Below are positions 24,100 through 35,662 of a stretch of DNA of 43,265 nt, in pieces; the stretch's first letter is position 1, and each line of letters opens with the position of its first letter. Made by a program: the position numbers and the translations under genes. Source of the DNA: Candidatus Micrarchaeota archaeon CG1_02_51_15 (GTDB lineage Archaea > Micrarchaeota > Micrarchaeia > Norongarragalinales > UBA8480); NCBI GenBank assembly GCA_001871495.1, contig MNVG01000017.1, positions 1-43,265 of the forward strand, in the 5' to 3' direction. Under the pieces are notes generated by a model, which made no database searches, had not been told where the DNA came from, and saw only the letters and a program-made list of their open reading frames with translations.

Positions 24100-24651
24100 T
24101 TGATAGCATGGATACTGTTAATAGTAATACTCGTAATACTAGCCGCGTTTGTACTCATATACAACGGCTTGATTACGATCAAGACTCGCGTGGACAACGC
24201 GTGGTCGCAAATAGACGTCCAGCTCAAACGACGCGCGGACTTGATTCCCAACCTCGTCGAGACCGTCAAGGGCTACGCAAAGCACGAAAAAACGGTTTTC
24301 GAAAACGTCACGAAAGCGCGTTCGGCATTAATGGGCGCAAAGACTGTTGCCGAAAAAGGCGAGGCATCCAACCAACTTACCTCAACTCTTAAAACGCTTT
24401 TTGCAGTTGCCGAAAACTATCCAACGCTCAGGGCAACTGAGAACTTCAAGCAGCTCCAGGAGGAACTCAGCGGAACCGAATCCAAAATCGCTTACTCACG
24501 CCAGTTCTACAACGACAGCGTAATGGAATACAACCAAAAAATCCAGCAAATTCCCACCAACTTCGTAGCGGGAATGCTGGCCTACAAGCAACGCGAGTAC
24601 TTCCAAGCAACCGAAGAAGAGAAAAAGGCAGTCAAAGTAAACTTTGAGTAA
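24100..24651 (+). CDS. lemA: LemA family membrane protein
   Basis: About 183 residues: an N-terminal TM helix ([20 protein letters not shown]) with a short outside segment, then a long four-helix coiled domain with the signature [20 protein letters not shown] and [13 protein letters not shown] at 24100 is chosen because AAAGGTGG (24086-24093) lies 6 bases upstream; the earlier TTG at 24082 precedes this site. A TTAAAA box sits about 30 bases upstream of the transcript start. LemA genes often neighbour htpX in prokaryotes, and htpX is three genes downstream. The biochemical role is not established. Confidence 0.92.
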
Positions 24652-24679
24652 AACGGAAATACTTCGGTGAACAGACGGA

Positions 24680-25231
24680 ATGCCAAGCATAACAAGGGAA
24701 CGCGAATCGAAACGCTGGCAAACCCTTTACTCCACGCAAGAAAAACTGAGGTCCCTATTCAAGGAGCCTTACGGACAAGCAATCGGGTCAGTCATTGCAG
24801 GAACAATAGACTTTGTCAAAAAAAACGATACTCAAACAGGCCGCAAGTTTAACATACTAGTAATGGGCGGAGGAAAAGGCAGGTTTAGCCGCGATACGCT
24901 GCCGTTCGTCATTAAAGAGTTACGAAATGCCGGAAGTAAAGTAAGGCTGGAAGTAACCGAAACAGACATTGCGTCGGTTATCAAACATGCTCCAACCCGA
25001 AGAAAATTACAGGCAGACATGACCGCGTTACCGTTTAAAGACAAGGCATTCGACTTGGTATTAAGCGAGTCTTCATTAAACCAGCTCGGCCCGAAACAAC
25101 TCGGCCAAGTAGTAGGCGAAATAAAACGCGTACTCACTCCAAAGGATGCCTCATTCACGTTCAAGACATTCCACCAGACAGTACCGATTGGCTGCCCTCT
25201 GAATTACGGATTCCCGGGATGGACCCAATGA
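24680..25231 (+). CDS. Class I SAM-dependent methyltransferase-like protein
   Basis: 183 residues. FNILVMGGGKGRFSRDTLPF is a glycine-rich motif I, KVRLEVTETDI the second strand, and LQADMTALPFKDKAFDLVLS with IKRVLTPKDASFTFKT the later strands of a Rossmann methyltransferase. GGTGA at 24666-24670 is 9 bases before the ATG. The C-terminus ends abruptly after the fifth strand, so the substrate-binding part is short or supplied by the next gene, whose ATG overlaps this stop codon. Substrate unknown. It is embedded between lemA and htpX in what looks like one operon. Confidence 0.75.
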   Translation: MPSITRERESKRWQTLYSTQEKLRSLFKEPYGQAIGSVIAGTIDFVKKNDTQTGRKFNILVMGGGKGRFSRDTLPFVIKELRNAGSKVRLEVTETDIASVIKHAPTRRKLQADMTALPFKDKAFDLVLSESSLNQLGPKQLGQVVGEIKRVLTPKDASFTFKTFHQTVPIGCPLNYGFPGWTQ

Positions 25232-25569
25232 ATACTAGCGTTACTGTTCAAAAACAGACCGTATCCGCATTAGCTCACGCAAGTTTTGCATTGACAGCAC
25301 GCCAAGCATTCGCAACACGCCAACTAAAAAACGCGCTTATAGAAGTGCAGGCCACTGCAACCGTCAACCGCCCGAATGCAGAAACACTGGCGGAAATTGG
25401 CATCAACGGAAGACCCAGCGGATTACTTTTCCACAACGGAGCCGTGTTTACGGAAACCCAAAATCCGACTTCGAGACTGAAATTGACATATAAAGGTGCA
25501 ATCCACTTATTGTCAAAAAACCTAAAAACGCAAGACTTAATCAATCATATCGAATCAAACTTCGAGTAA
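25228..25569 (+). CDS. Small orphan protein translationally coupled to the methyltransferase
   Basis: About 113 residues starting MNTSVTVQKQTVSALAHASF. Its ATG overlaps the TGA of the preceding gene (ATGA at 25228-25231), the usual arrangement for coupled translation. An alternative ATG three codons earlier is less likely. The sequence has an Ala/Thr/Gln-rich first half and an RLKLTYKGAIHLLSKNLKTQ segment near the end. There are no TM, signal or metal motifs. It may be the missing C-terminal lobe of the methyltransferase as a separate chain. I recognise no family. It ends 6 bases before htpX. Confidence 0.6.
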   Translation: MNTSVTVQKQTVSALAHASFALTARQAFATRQLKNALIEVQATATVNRPNAETLAEIGINGRPSGLLFHNGAVFTETQNPTSRLKLTYKGAIHLLSKNLKTQDLINHIESNFE

Positions 25570-25575
25570 GATAAC

Positions 25576-26466
25576 ATGGCTGGAATGTATTCTCAAATCG
25601 ACTCCAACAAATGGAAGTCATACGCGATAGTCGCCGCTTTCTTTGTGGTAATACTTGGCATAATGTGGTTTGCAACCTACTTCTTTGCGGGCTTTGGCGA
25701 ATTCTCAATAGCAATAGCTGGAGTCCTTGCAATAGTGTTCGCTCTGGGCGGCTACTACTGGGGCGACAGATTAGTGCTATCATTGAGCCACGCAAAGCCC
25801 GCAAACGAAAACGAACACCGCTTCCTGTTGAACACCGTCGAAGGTTTGGCTATTGCAGCAGGACTGCCTAAACCCAAAGCATACGTAATAGAAGACAATG
25901 CAATAAACGCGTTCGCAACAGGCCGCAACCCCAAACTCTCTTCAATAGCAGTTACGACAGGCGCGCTCAAGAAACTAAACCGAGTCGAACTCGAAGGAGT
26001 AATAGCCCACGAAATGAGCCACATTAAAAACTATGATATACGCCTTGCAACGGTTGCAGTGGTAATGGTTGGTTTTGTGGCAATACTAAGCGACATACTG
26101 TTTCGCGGAATGCTTTTTGGAGCAGGCGGCCGCGACGACAACCGAGGCAACAGCGGCGCAATAATGATGGTGGTTGGAATCGCGTTTGCAATACTGGCTC
26201 CGATTGCAGTGAAACTATTGCAGCTGGCGTTGTCAAGAAAGCGAGAGTACCTTGCCGACGCAACCGGCGCACTGCTTACGAGGTATCCCGAGGGGCTTGC
26301 GAGCGCGTTGGAAAAAATAGGTAAAGACTCCAACCAACTGCAAGGCGCTTCCGAAACAATGGCAACGCTCTACATAGCCAACCCGTTCAAAAACATTTCA
26401 GCCTCAAAACTGCTCAGCACCCACCCTCCGTTGGAAGACAGGATCGCAAAACTAAGGGCAATGTAA
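25576..26466 (+). CDS. htpX: HtpX-like M48 membrane zinc metalloprotease
   Basis: 296 residues. Two N-terminal TM segments (about 17-58) precede the catalytic HEMSH at about 147-151 (VIAHEMSHIKNYD). Two further TM segments (about 160-215) follow, then the third zinc-ligand region KREYLADATGALLTRYPEGL (Glu ligand), and the C-terminal LSTHPPLEDRIAKLRAM typical of HtpX. The protease handles misfolded membrane proteins with its active site in the cytoplasm. It is last gene of the lemA operon, 6 bases after the orphan. Complete length. Confidence 0.95.
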   Translation: MAGMYSQIDSNKWKSYAIVAAFFVVILGIMWFATYFFAGFGEFSIAIAGVLAIVFALGGYYWGDRLVLSLSHAKPANENEHRFLLNTVEGLAIAAGLPKPKAYVIEDNAINAFATGRNPKLSSIAVTTGALKKLNRVELEGVIAHEMSHIKNYDIRLATVAVVMVGFVAILSDILFRGMLFGAGGRDDNRGNSGAIMMVVGIAFAILAPIAVKLLQLALSRKREYLADATGALLTRYPEGLASALEKIGKDSNQLQGASETMATLYIANPFKNISASKLLSTHPPLEDRIAKLRAM

Positions 26467-26467
26467 A

Positions 26468-27265
26468 CTACTTATTCAAACGCGCGCAGTAAATCGGAAA
26501 CCCGAACGTCATTGCGTAACCCGAACGGGTAACACGGACGCCCCTCGTTTTTTGCGCCCCTTCAATTATCCCCCGAATTTTACTTACTTCCTTTTCGGTA
26601 ATCGCGTAGCGCGCGGCGTGGTCCTTCTCCGAAAGCCGCAACGCGGGCGCTTCGCCTATTTCTTTCGGAGTACTAAACCCGGCCCGCAAGTAAACCGACG
26701 CGAGGTCTCCCTTCCACTGGAAATGCCACCTGCCTATCTTCGGACTCGACGAATAAACCAAGTCCGCAACCCTCCTTTCTTCCAGAGTACGAAGCGATGC
26801 ACACTGGTTGACGAAAAAACCGCGCGGCTTCAAGTGCAAGGCAACGCGCTTGAGCGCTTTTACCTGCTCTGCTGCGGAAGGAAAATAATCAAGGGAACTC
26901 CGCATAATCACCAAGTCGAATTTACGGTCCAACCGAAGGCCAAGCACATCCGCAACTATCTTCTCGGCGGCCGCGTTCTTGTTTTCACGCAGTTGTTCGG
27001 CGGAAGCATCAACCAACGTTAAAGACGAACGAAAGCCTTTTTGCCTCAAACGAAGATACAGCCGTTCCCCCAGGTCGCCGTTGCCCGAGCAAACGTAGAG
27101 CACCGCAGGGTTGCGCGGCAGTTTCGCAAACAACGACCTGCAGGCCGTGACGAACGCGCTGAAGACCCTGTTGTTCGAGAAGTAGCCGCCGTAGACCTTG
27201 CGCCAATTGCGGCCCGCAACGCGTTTGTCGCGCAAAAGGTTTTCGCGAGCCGCGTTCGAAATCAT
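26468..27265 (-). CDS. SAM-dependent methyltransferase, class I, substrate unknown
   Basis: About 265 residues starting at ATG 27265, 11 bases after the NIF3-family stop; a longer reading would overlap that gene. VLYVCSGNGDLGERLYLRLR is motif I, SLTLVDASAEQLRENKNAA carries the acidic motif II residue, and KIVADVLGLRLDRKFDLVIM and LKRVALHLKPRGFFVNQCAS complete the Rossmann core. A 100-residue C-terminal extension (FQWKGDLASVYLRAGFSTPK onward) is not recognised. It is the terminal gene of a minus-strand unit with nif3 and porC and converges on htpX with a one-base gap. Confidence 0.78.
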   Translation of the reverse strand: MISNAARENLLRDKRVAGRNWRKVYGGYFSNNRVFSAFVTACRSLFAKLPRNPAVLYVCSGNGDLGERLYLRLRQKGFRSSLTLVDASAEQLRENKNAAAEKIVADVLGLRLDRKFDLVIMRSSLDYFPSAAEQVKALKRVALHLKPRGFFVNQCASLRTLEERRVADLVYSSSPKIGRWHFQWKGDLASVYLRAGFSTPKEIGEAPALRLSEKDHAARYAITEKEVSKIRGIIEGAQKTRGVRVTRSGYAMTFGFPIYCARLNK

Positions 27266-27275
27266 TACTGTCAGC

Positions 27276-28043
27276 TCACACTCCGGTGGGCGCGTCGACG
27301 AAAAAGCTTTCGACCTTGAACTTGCCTTGCAAGAGCGGAGCAATCTCTTTTACCCCCAGGGTTTCGGTAGCGTAATGCCCGGCTGCGATTACCGACAATC
27401 CGAGGTCCCGTGCCAGCCGCGCAGAGGCTTGGTTTAGTTCGCCGGTGACAAACAGGTCAAGTTCGAGTTCGGCGGCTTCTTCAACACACGAACCCCCGCC
27501 GCCTGAAACCACTCCGACGTGCTTGGCCGAATTTTTTCCATAAGCAAGCACTTTTACTCCAAAACCCACTGAAGACGAAAGACGTTTAGCAATTGATTCA
27601 ATGCTTTCTTCGCGCGACAAGCTTCCTTTGAAACCAATGTCAACCCCGTGGTACCCCGCCCACGGTTTTACTTGCCTTAAGCCAAGCATTTCCGCAAGGA
27701 CGGCGTTGTTGCCGAGTTCGGGGTGCAAGTCCAGTGGAAGGTGCGCGGCATAAACAGACAAGTCGTGTTCGAATAGCACGCCGAGCATTTTTTTCCAGTG
27801 GCCCTTGAAGACCGAAGGCGTCTTGTCGCTTCCTTTCCACAGCATTCCGTGGTGTACTAAAATCAGTTGCGCGCCGCGCTCGGCTGCTTCAGTGAAAGCT
27901 GGAATGCAGGCGTCGACTGCGCAAGCAACTTTGGTAACGCGCGGTTTTCCTTCAAACTGCAGGCCGTTGAGTGAAGCGTCGTCTATCTCCTTGACTTTCA
28001 GCTCGACGTCCAAAAACGAAACGATTTCACGCAATTCAGCCAT
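27276..28043 (-). CDS. NIF3/YbgI-family dinuclear metal protein
   Basis: About 255 residues. The metal-binding pattern of the NIF3 family is present: LILVHHGMLWKG (two His), AAHLPLDLHPELG, and VIAAGHYATETLGV near the C-terminus (His and Glu). The family forms ring-shaped hexamers with two metals per subunit; it is often annotated GTP cyclohydrolase I type 2, but the true reaction is unsettled. ATG at 28043 has a GTGAG site upstream and avoids overlap with porC. It lies 9 bases downstream of porC. Confidence 0.9.
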   Translation of the reverse strand: MAELREIVSFLDVELKVKEIDDASLNGLQFEGKPRVTKVACAVDACIPAFTEAAERGAQLILVHHGMLWKGSDKTPSVFKGHWKKMLGVLFEHDLSVYAAHLPLDLHPELGNNAVLAEMLGLRQVKPWAGYHGVDIGFKGSLSREESIESIAKRLSSSVGFGVKVLAYGKNSAKHVGVVSGGGGSCVEEAAELELDLFVTGELNQASARLARDLGLSVIAAGHYATETLGVKEIAPLLQGKFKVESFFVDAPTGV

Positions 28044-34973: not shown

Positions 34974-35662
34974 ATGCCCGAAGAAAAGCCGCTTCCGAAA
35001 AAAATCATCGCTGAAATAGGATACGGCCCGGTCCCGTGGACTTCCAAGCCGCTTGAACTAAAAGAAAAACTGACTACCGAACAGCAGAAAAGACTGGAAG
35101 CCTATAAGAACCGGAAACCGCCACACCCGACCGACGCAAAACCGCCGCGCAACAGGATTTACATAGGAATAGAACACCCGCGCGCGAACCGCCTGCCATT
35201 TAGTTTTGCTGGAAACCCTTTATTTGCAGCACTACTCAATAACAACCCGCACGAGTTATTCATCTCGCAAGAAACCGAAAAAATATTTTAAAAAGGAGGG
35301 CACGCAGTACACGCGGACGGACTGCACCTGCCGCTAGGTAACGGCACAGTTGACGAAATACGAGTAACAACGTGCTCAACGCGCCCACCATTGACCCCGC
35401 GTTTGCGGACAACCGCGCACACAACGCCTTGCTTGCGGAAATCCGCCGCGTGCTTAAGCCGGACGGCAGGCTCAACATAATGCACAATAAAGGGCTTGGC
35501 GAAGCCAGCCCACTAGAATCCGCATTAATTCAAGCCCACTTCCAACCCGACAAACAGGCAAGCGAAAAGCTGAAACGAAAATACGCCAAACGTAATTCCC
35601 GCATAGCAGCTCCGAACCCCACGCCTGGTCTTTCCGCAAGGTTTCCTGACGCCGCGTTTTGA
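34974..35662 (+). pseudogene. Broken SAM-methyltransferase-like gene (in-frame stop plus frameshift)
   Basis: The ATG-started frame reads KKIIAEIGYGPVPWTSKP and RIYIGIEHPRANRLP (motif I and II-like), then hits TAA at 35289-35291. The same frame continues after the stop as GGHAVHADGLHLPLGNGTVD-EIRV. At about 35365-35367 the frame must change by one base to continue as NNVLNAPTIDPAFADNRAHN, then RRVLKPDGRLNIMHNKG and on to TGA 35660-35662. The three pieces line up as one methyltransferase of about 230 residues. Two independent lesions favour a pseudogene; sequencing error or recoding cannot be excluded. AAGGAGGG lies just after the stop but no start codon follows at useful spacing. Confidence 0.7.

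Follow-up and report, generated by a model that had tools for sequence, protein, structure and literature searches.

What lies between lemA and htpX in Candidatus Micrarchaeota archaeon CG1_02_51_15: two further genes that complete a four-gene operon, or the remains of a single one? The locus is carried on contig MNVG01000017.1, the 43,265 nt of which were analysed as a whole and are called the window here. The source genome (G000) is a draft of 1.13 Mb in 56 contigs and is 91% complete. A first-pass annotation had described the region as an operon of lemA, a short methyltransferase gene, a 113-residue orphan and htpX with coupled translation. All four open reading frames (ORFs) are found at the positions and in the order that it gave, but the two middle ORFs appear to be the parts of one broken gene, which would leave three genes and not four.

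The first ORF, lemA (24100..24651, + strand), starts with TTG and encodes a LemA family protein of 183 amino acids (aa) that matches PF04011 over the full length of the profile (positions 1-149 of 149, E 2e-63). After 28 nt, and on the same strand as the other three, follows the methyltransferase ORF (24680-25231, +; 183 aa). It matches Methyltransf_11 at E 7.4e-10, and its 39.8 bits against a gathering score of 21.2 identify a SAM-binding core; Methyltransf_25 is also above its Pfam cut-off on this ORF. The third ORF (25228-25569, +; 113 aa) has its ATG at 25228, overlapping the TGA at 25229-25231 of the ORF before it, so that the ATGA is present in the letters. This ORF looked like an orphan because neither Pfam nor NCBIfam gives a match for it up to E 1. 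The last ORF, htpX (25576..26466, +), begins 6 nt further on and encodes an M48 zinc metalloprotease of 296 aa, which matches PF01435 (Peptidase_M48) at E 6.4e-32 and contains HEMSH, which fits the HExxH zinc motif. Eight NCBIfam HtpX models match the same protein, every one below its own cut-off, the best of them (NF003425) with 332.7 bits against a curated cut-off of 355.

Intact relatives of the methyltransferase are encoded in two other Micrarchaeota genomes, each as a single ORF, and these are the fused homologues for which the first-pass annotation had suggested a search. The relative in G005 is 304 aa long (L002:1495–2409, within a 307-aa open frame), the one in G016 is 293 aa long (L005:1504–2385), and the two are 32% identical to each other. 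When the orphan was used as a query against 60 genomes, its own included, one other genome was matched, G005, at E 3.3e-6. This sole match at E <= 0.001 in the 59 other genomes lies inside the fused methyltransferase, on which ground the orphan was rejected as an independent conserved gene. The orphan is conserved weakly, as the C-terminal half of a larger protein.

A tblastn comparison of the G005 protein with the window gives two segments that abut without a gap (joint E 5e-37, for a single comparison). Residues 11-151 align in the methyltransferase frame with 39% identity and end at base 25135, and residues 153-303 align in the orphan frame with 29% identity and begin at base 25138. The G016 protein gives an N-half segment and no C-half segment in the same kind of comparison, and the match of the window to a profile of the two relatives is confined to positions 11-160; the C-half is therefore linked to the family mainly through G005. 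On these alignments, the methyltransferase ORF and the orphan are very probably the two halves of one frame-broken methyltransferase gene. Its N-terminal half would extend over 24680..25135 (+), up to 'EIKRVL', and its C-terminal half over 25138..25569 (+) in the other frame, comprising the orphan plus 30 codons upstream of its ATG. The orphan frame is open from 25039. The boundary of the tblastn segments places the break in the interval 25136..25150 (+), with a net shift of −1 modulo 3, and the tail of the short methyltransferase ORF past the break (25139..25231, +) has no detectable similarity to the family.

By homology the break thus falls ~80–90 nt before the supposed orphan ATG. The 30 codons before this ATG align with G005 with a score of 67, reached by none of 5000 shuffles, and with G016 with a score of 38, reached by 15 of 5000. 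For the 113-aa orphan itself, shuffles as good were found in 0 of 2000 cases against G005 and in 34 of 2000 against G016, and for the last 30 residues of the short ORF in 2041 of 5000 and 4197 of 5000 cases, respectively. Because homology in the orphan frame begins ~90 nt before the ATG, translation coupling through the ATGA is not supported. The overlap exists, but the alignments suggest that the apparent coupled start is an internal methionine ~30 codons into the C-terminal half and that the overlap is incidental. The further proposal, that the orphan might supply what the methyltransferase seems to lack, holds in a changed sense, since the two ORFs would complete each other as halves of one gene and not as two proteins.

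Codon usage agrees with this anatomy in outline, not in detail. Scored over stretches of 90 nt, the methyltransferase frame is ahead as far as the stretch 25100–25189, neither frame is ahead at 25130–25219, and from 25160–25249 on the lead is with the orphan frame. The crossover is near 25175, about 25–40 nt beyond the break placed by homology. Over the 90 nt before the orphan ATG, the orphan frame scores 0.181, at the 10th percentile of in-frame values, with only 0.3% of off-frame values as high, and the methyltransferase frame scores 0.007, at the 2nd percentile of in-frame values, with 1.6% of off-frame values as high. The signal of both halves falls inside the range of in-frame segments (22nd and 7th percentile).

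The divergence of the two halves has also been compared. In the aligned C-half, identity is 31% between the window and G005, 29% between G005 and G016, and 20% between the window and G016; in the N-half, it is 40% between the window and G005 and 34% between G005 and G016. The window keeps 14 of the 38 columns common to G005 and G016 in the C-half and 32 of 48 in the N-half. The lower retention in the C-half would fit either relaxed selection or a faster-evolving domain. Since the coding signal is kept and the C-half is about as close to G005 as G016 is, the break is either recent or not real.

The broken methyltransferase contains a GGGKG loop, then ETD beyond the following strand, LPF...FDL and, ahead of the break, an RVL/RIL turn; we take these to be core features of class I SAM-methyltransferases. 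The best profile matches among solved chains are enzymes of the Methyltransf_11 type, BH2331 (1vl5) and YcgJ (1xxl/2glu). The SAM-binding core is alike in these proteins and in the window gene, whereas the latter is frame-broken and its orphan half has no family match. Pfam stretches of the intact relatives end by residue 166 (G005) and residue 181 (G016), and against solved chains the best-matching stretches reach no further than position 176 of the 322 in the profile. An AlphaFold model of the intact G005 protein, made from a two-sequence alignment, is of low confidence (mean pLDDT 47), with block means of 56–84 over residues 31–100 and 49–70 over residues 111–160. Its fourth modelled strand spans residues 151-159. 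We take this strand to be beta-5 of the class I fold, going by the topology of that fold, because the beta-3 region is poorly modelled. In terms of this model, the frame break would lie at or just before beta-5 and the short ORF would be without the C-terminal strands. A complete catalytic fold in a single reading frame is found in the relatives only, not in the window gene.

Few genomes carry the family. At E <= 0.001 the short ORF has matches in 12 of the 60 genomes, its own included, with G005 and G016 at E about 1e-24 and the remainder weak (4e-6 to 5e-4). At E <= 1e-12 the family is present in 3 of the 295 genomes of the phylum, again with its own included, which makes the methyltransferase dispensable in the phylum and favours a natural break. 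Scanning genome contigs (genome_contigs) with the two-sequence alignment, from which only degenerate patterns can be drawn, returned G005 and G016 alone as relatives among 34 pattern stretches. A scan of viral contigs (viral_contigs) for a viral origin returned 17 pattern stretches and no confirmed relative. A separate, intact class I methyltransferase gene is located in the window at 26468-27343 (−), on the opposite strand to htpX, and ends 1 nt from the htpX stop. The broken gene was considered as a recent duplicate of this convergent gene and the idea was rejected, as only a 43-residue match (E 0.002) connects the two.

The neighbourhood of the gene has been compared across the phylum. Of the 113 genomes that have both genes among the strong matches listed, 107 have lemA followed, on one strand and within 3 kb, by htpX. 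Seven places were added to these matches (lemA in G022, G024, G017, G014, G008 and G045, and htpX in G055), all of them from neighbouring pairs, which favours adjacency. In an uncut set of 60 genomes, taken at E <= 0.001 with distant M48 proteins and second LemA copies included, 44 genomes have both genes and 27 have them adjacent. The two genes form a common pair. The window has the same order and strand as this pair (PF04011; PF01435) and differs from it by a gap of 927 nt that holds the broken methyltransferase gene. Among the matches listed, the gap is 12–208 nt long in 103 of the 107 pairs, and the four wider gaps measure 513, 594, 682 and 927 nt, the last being that of the window. In the uncut set, 2 of 27 gaps exceed 208 nt, namely those of G016 and the window.

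The gap sometimes holds another gene, and a different one in each of the four cases. In G262 it holds an ORF of 158 aa that no family profile matches above its cut-off, in G192 a GNAT acetyltransferase gene, and in G016 a 209-aa ORF. With a different gene in each wide gap, the gap content says little about HtpX function. The methyltransferase is present in 1 of the 107 pairs among the matches listed, that of the window alone; 103 of the gaps are too short to hold it. The four-gene order was not found elsewhere, the middle genes being missing from all other lemA–htpX loci examined.

Two observations on these loci are given for their own sake. The 209-aa ORF of G016 (L017:3395-4024, −, contig 51) matches sigma-70 region 4 (PF08281, 28.1 bits against 25.7), with region 2 at only E 0.049, and a sigma-70 region 4 match between lemA and htpX is odd for an archaeon. 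At G026:C44:7863-8405 (+), the lemA match is part of a 396-aa open frame, roughly double the usual length, and may represent a LemA fusion.

The intact methyltransferase genes are found in other surroundings. That of G016 adjoins the gene for ribosomal protein uL1, on a contig other than that of lemA–htpX. In G005 (L002:896-2821, −), the intact gene shares an overlap with an archease gene and has a 2'-5' RNA ligase-like gene after it, surroundings that hint at a role of the intact family in RNA processing. G005, a genome that is 71% complete, gave no HtpX match. In the same-genus genome G001 (88% complete), no match to the orphan, the methyltransferase, lemA or htpX was found at the thresholds used.

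The reading we favour, with a probability of roughly 0.57, is that of a single passenger methyltransferase gene whose frame has been naturally broken and which is thereby inactivated. A rare class I SAM-dependent methyltransferase gene (~300 aa) would have settled as a passenger between lemA and htpX, and a small natural insertion or deletion near 25136-25150 would have broken its frame. As written, the gene would yield a truncated protein that ends before the last Rossmann-fold strands and should be inactive, while lemA and htpX are probably transcribed through the insert. We infer the break in the living organism, the inactivation and the co-transcription. A scan limited to bacterial-type promoters and terminators gave no more sites than in shuffles. 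Pyrococcus furiosus offers a likeness in another enzyme, a chitinase: PF1233 and PF1234 are reported to be a single archaeal gene that a small indel, as judged against an intact homologue, has divided into two annotated ORFs (PMC3575233). In literature listings on archaeal LemA and HtpX, LemA–HtpX operons and Micrarchaeota pseudogenes, nothing on the present locus was found.

The main rival to a natural break is a consensus or assembly error, in which the gene of the organism is intact and the small indel is an artefact of the metagenome assembly. We consider it unlikely, though it is a serious alternative, as several of the observations made above would be expected from it: both halves score as coding sequence, the C-half has diverged from G005 no more than G016 has, both relatives are intact, and the genome is an incomplete draft. 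It was set against ten other genes of the window (~11.9 kb), and all ten match their family profile in one nearly full-length stretch, the shortest coverage being that of a hexulose-phosphate synthase-like gene (2–184 of 205 positions). Frame breaks are therefore not widespread in the window, and a random error that happened to fall in a dispensable gene of 0.9 kb is not the first expectation.

The window may hold a second broken methyltransferase, at 34974-35662 (+), which would fit either decay or errors. Beyond the TAA of the ORF at 34974-35291, its frame goes on to encode a methyltransferase-like stretch, GGHAVHADGLHLPLGNGTVDEIRV; the part that follows, EIRRVLKPDGRLNIMHNKG, is in another frame, that of the ORF at 35372-35662. 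Against Pfam, the stretch 34974-35662 gives Methyltransf_11 at E 0.029, below the cut-off, and the piece 35292-35396 gives no match; no relatives of the stretch were found in the 59 other genomes.

The break might also be bridged during translation. Programmed −1 ribosomal frameshifting would join both frames into a full-length methyltransferase, as has been documented in archaea for fucA1, the alpha-L-fucosidase gene of S. solfataricus, for which a review describes a slippery heptamer together with rare codons and a putative stem-loop (PMC8211752). The same review makes the case that interrupted genes are in many instances functional and that archaeal frameshifts occur in A/T-rich tracts resembling slippery sites (PMC8211752). 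The window gene is like fucA1, as described there, in that the N-part is in frame 0 and the C-part in an overlapping −1 frame (PMC8211752), and an A_AAG tetramer is present at 25141, at the homology break. Unlike fucA1, the break has no slippery heptamer and no downstream structure better than shuffles. The gene has only two X-XXY-YYZ heptamers in its frame: one at 24820, from where stops further along close the orphan frame, and one at 25213, which comes after the homology switch. Simple RNA folding downstream of the site, limited to structures without pseudoknots, is no better than in shuffles (z 0.52, 0.16 and 0.30). Tetramers of the A_AAR type are common, with one in every 54 codons across 30 long ORFs of the window, and the relatives in G005 and G016 are both single ORFs, which argues against recoding. 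Programmed frameshifting is improbable in the light of these points, and slightly more doubtful still is its most specific form, in which a single-tRNA −1 slip at the A_AAG at 25141 would give the full-length enzyme, with short and full-length products in a set ratio.

That the two ORFs are real genes, with a 183-aa and a 113-aa subunit made by coupled translation and assembled into a split methyltransferase, is very unlikely. The ATGA overlap and an orphan ORF that is open and coding-like are what such an arrangement would show. On the other side, neither protein would contain the 30 codons from the break to the ATG, which align well with the intact relative; the tail that the short ORF does have is without a match; and both relatives found are fused, so that the same split is not conserved in them.

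The idea that a methyl mark flags membrane proteins for HtpX or protects them from it is scarcely credible and is rejected on genome context: the shared strand and the close spacing, 28 nt after lemA and 6 nt before htpX by way of the orphan ORF, make co-transcription plausible, but the single case among the 107 pairs listed, the intact methyltransferases at the archease locus of G005 and the uL1 locus of G016, the missing HtpX match in G005 and the other ORFs in the remaining wide gaps all speak against it.

A single frame-broken passenger gene is thus the preferred reading, and it removes a false lead, since the apparent orphan and the apparent methyltransferase–protease operon most likely come down to one broken gene. 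A frame-broken passenger in a gap that is occasionally occupied is most likely an ordinary finding and not a new four-gene system. If the frames were joined by recoding rather than left to decay, the gene would join the few archaeal frameshift genes documented so far, and if the slip at 25141 were true, a Micrarchaeota archaeon would have a programmed frameshift in one of its cellular genes, just ahead of htpX.
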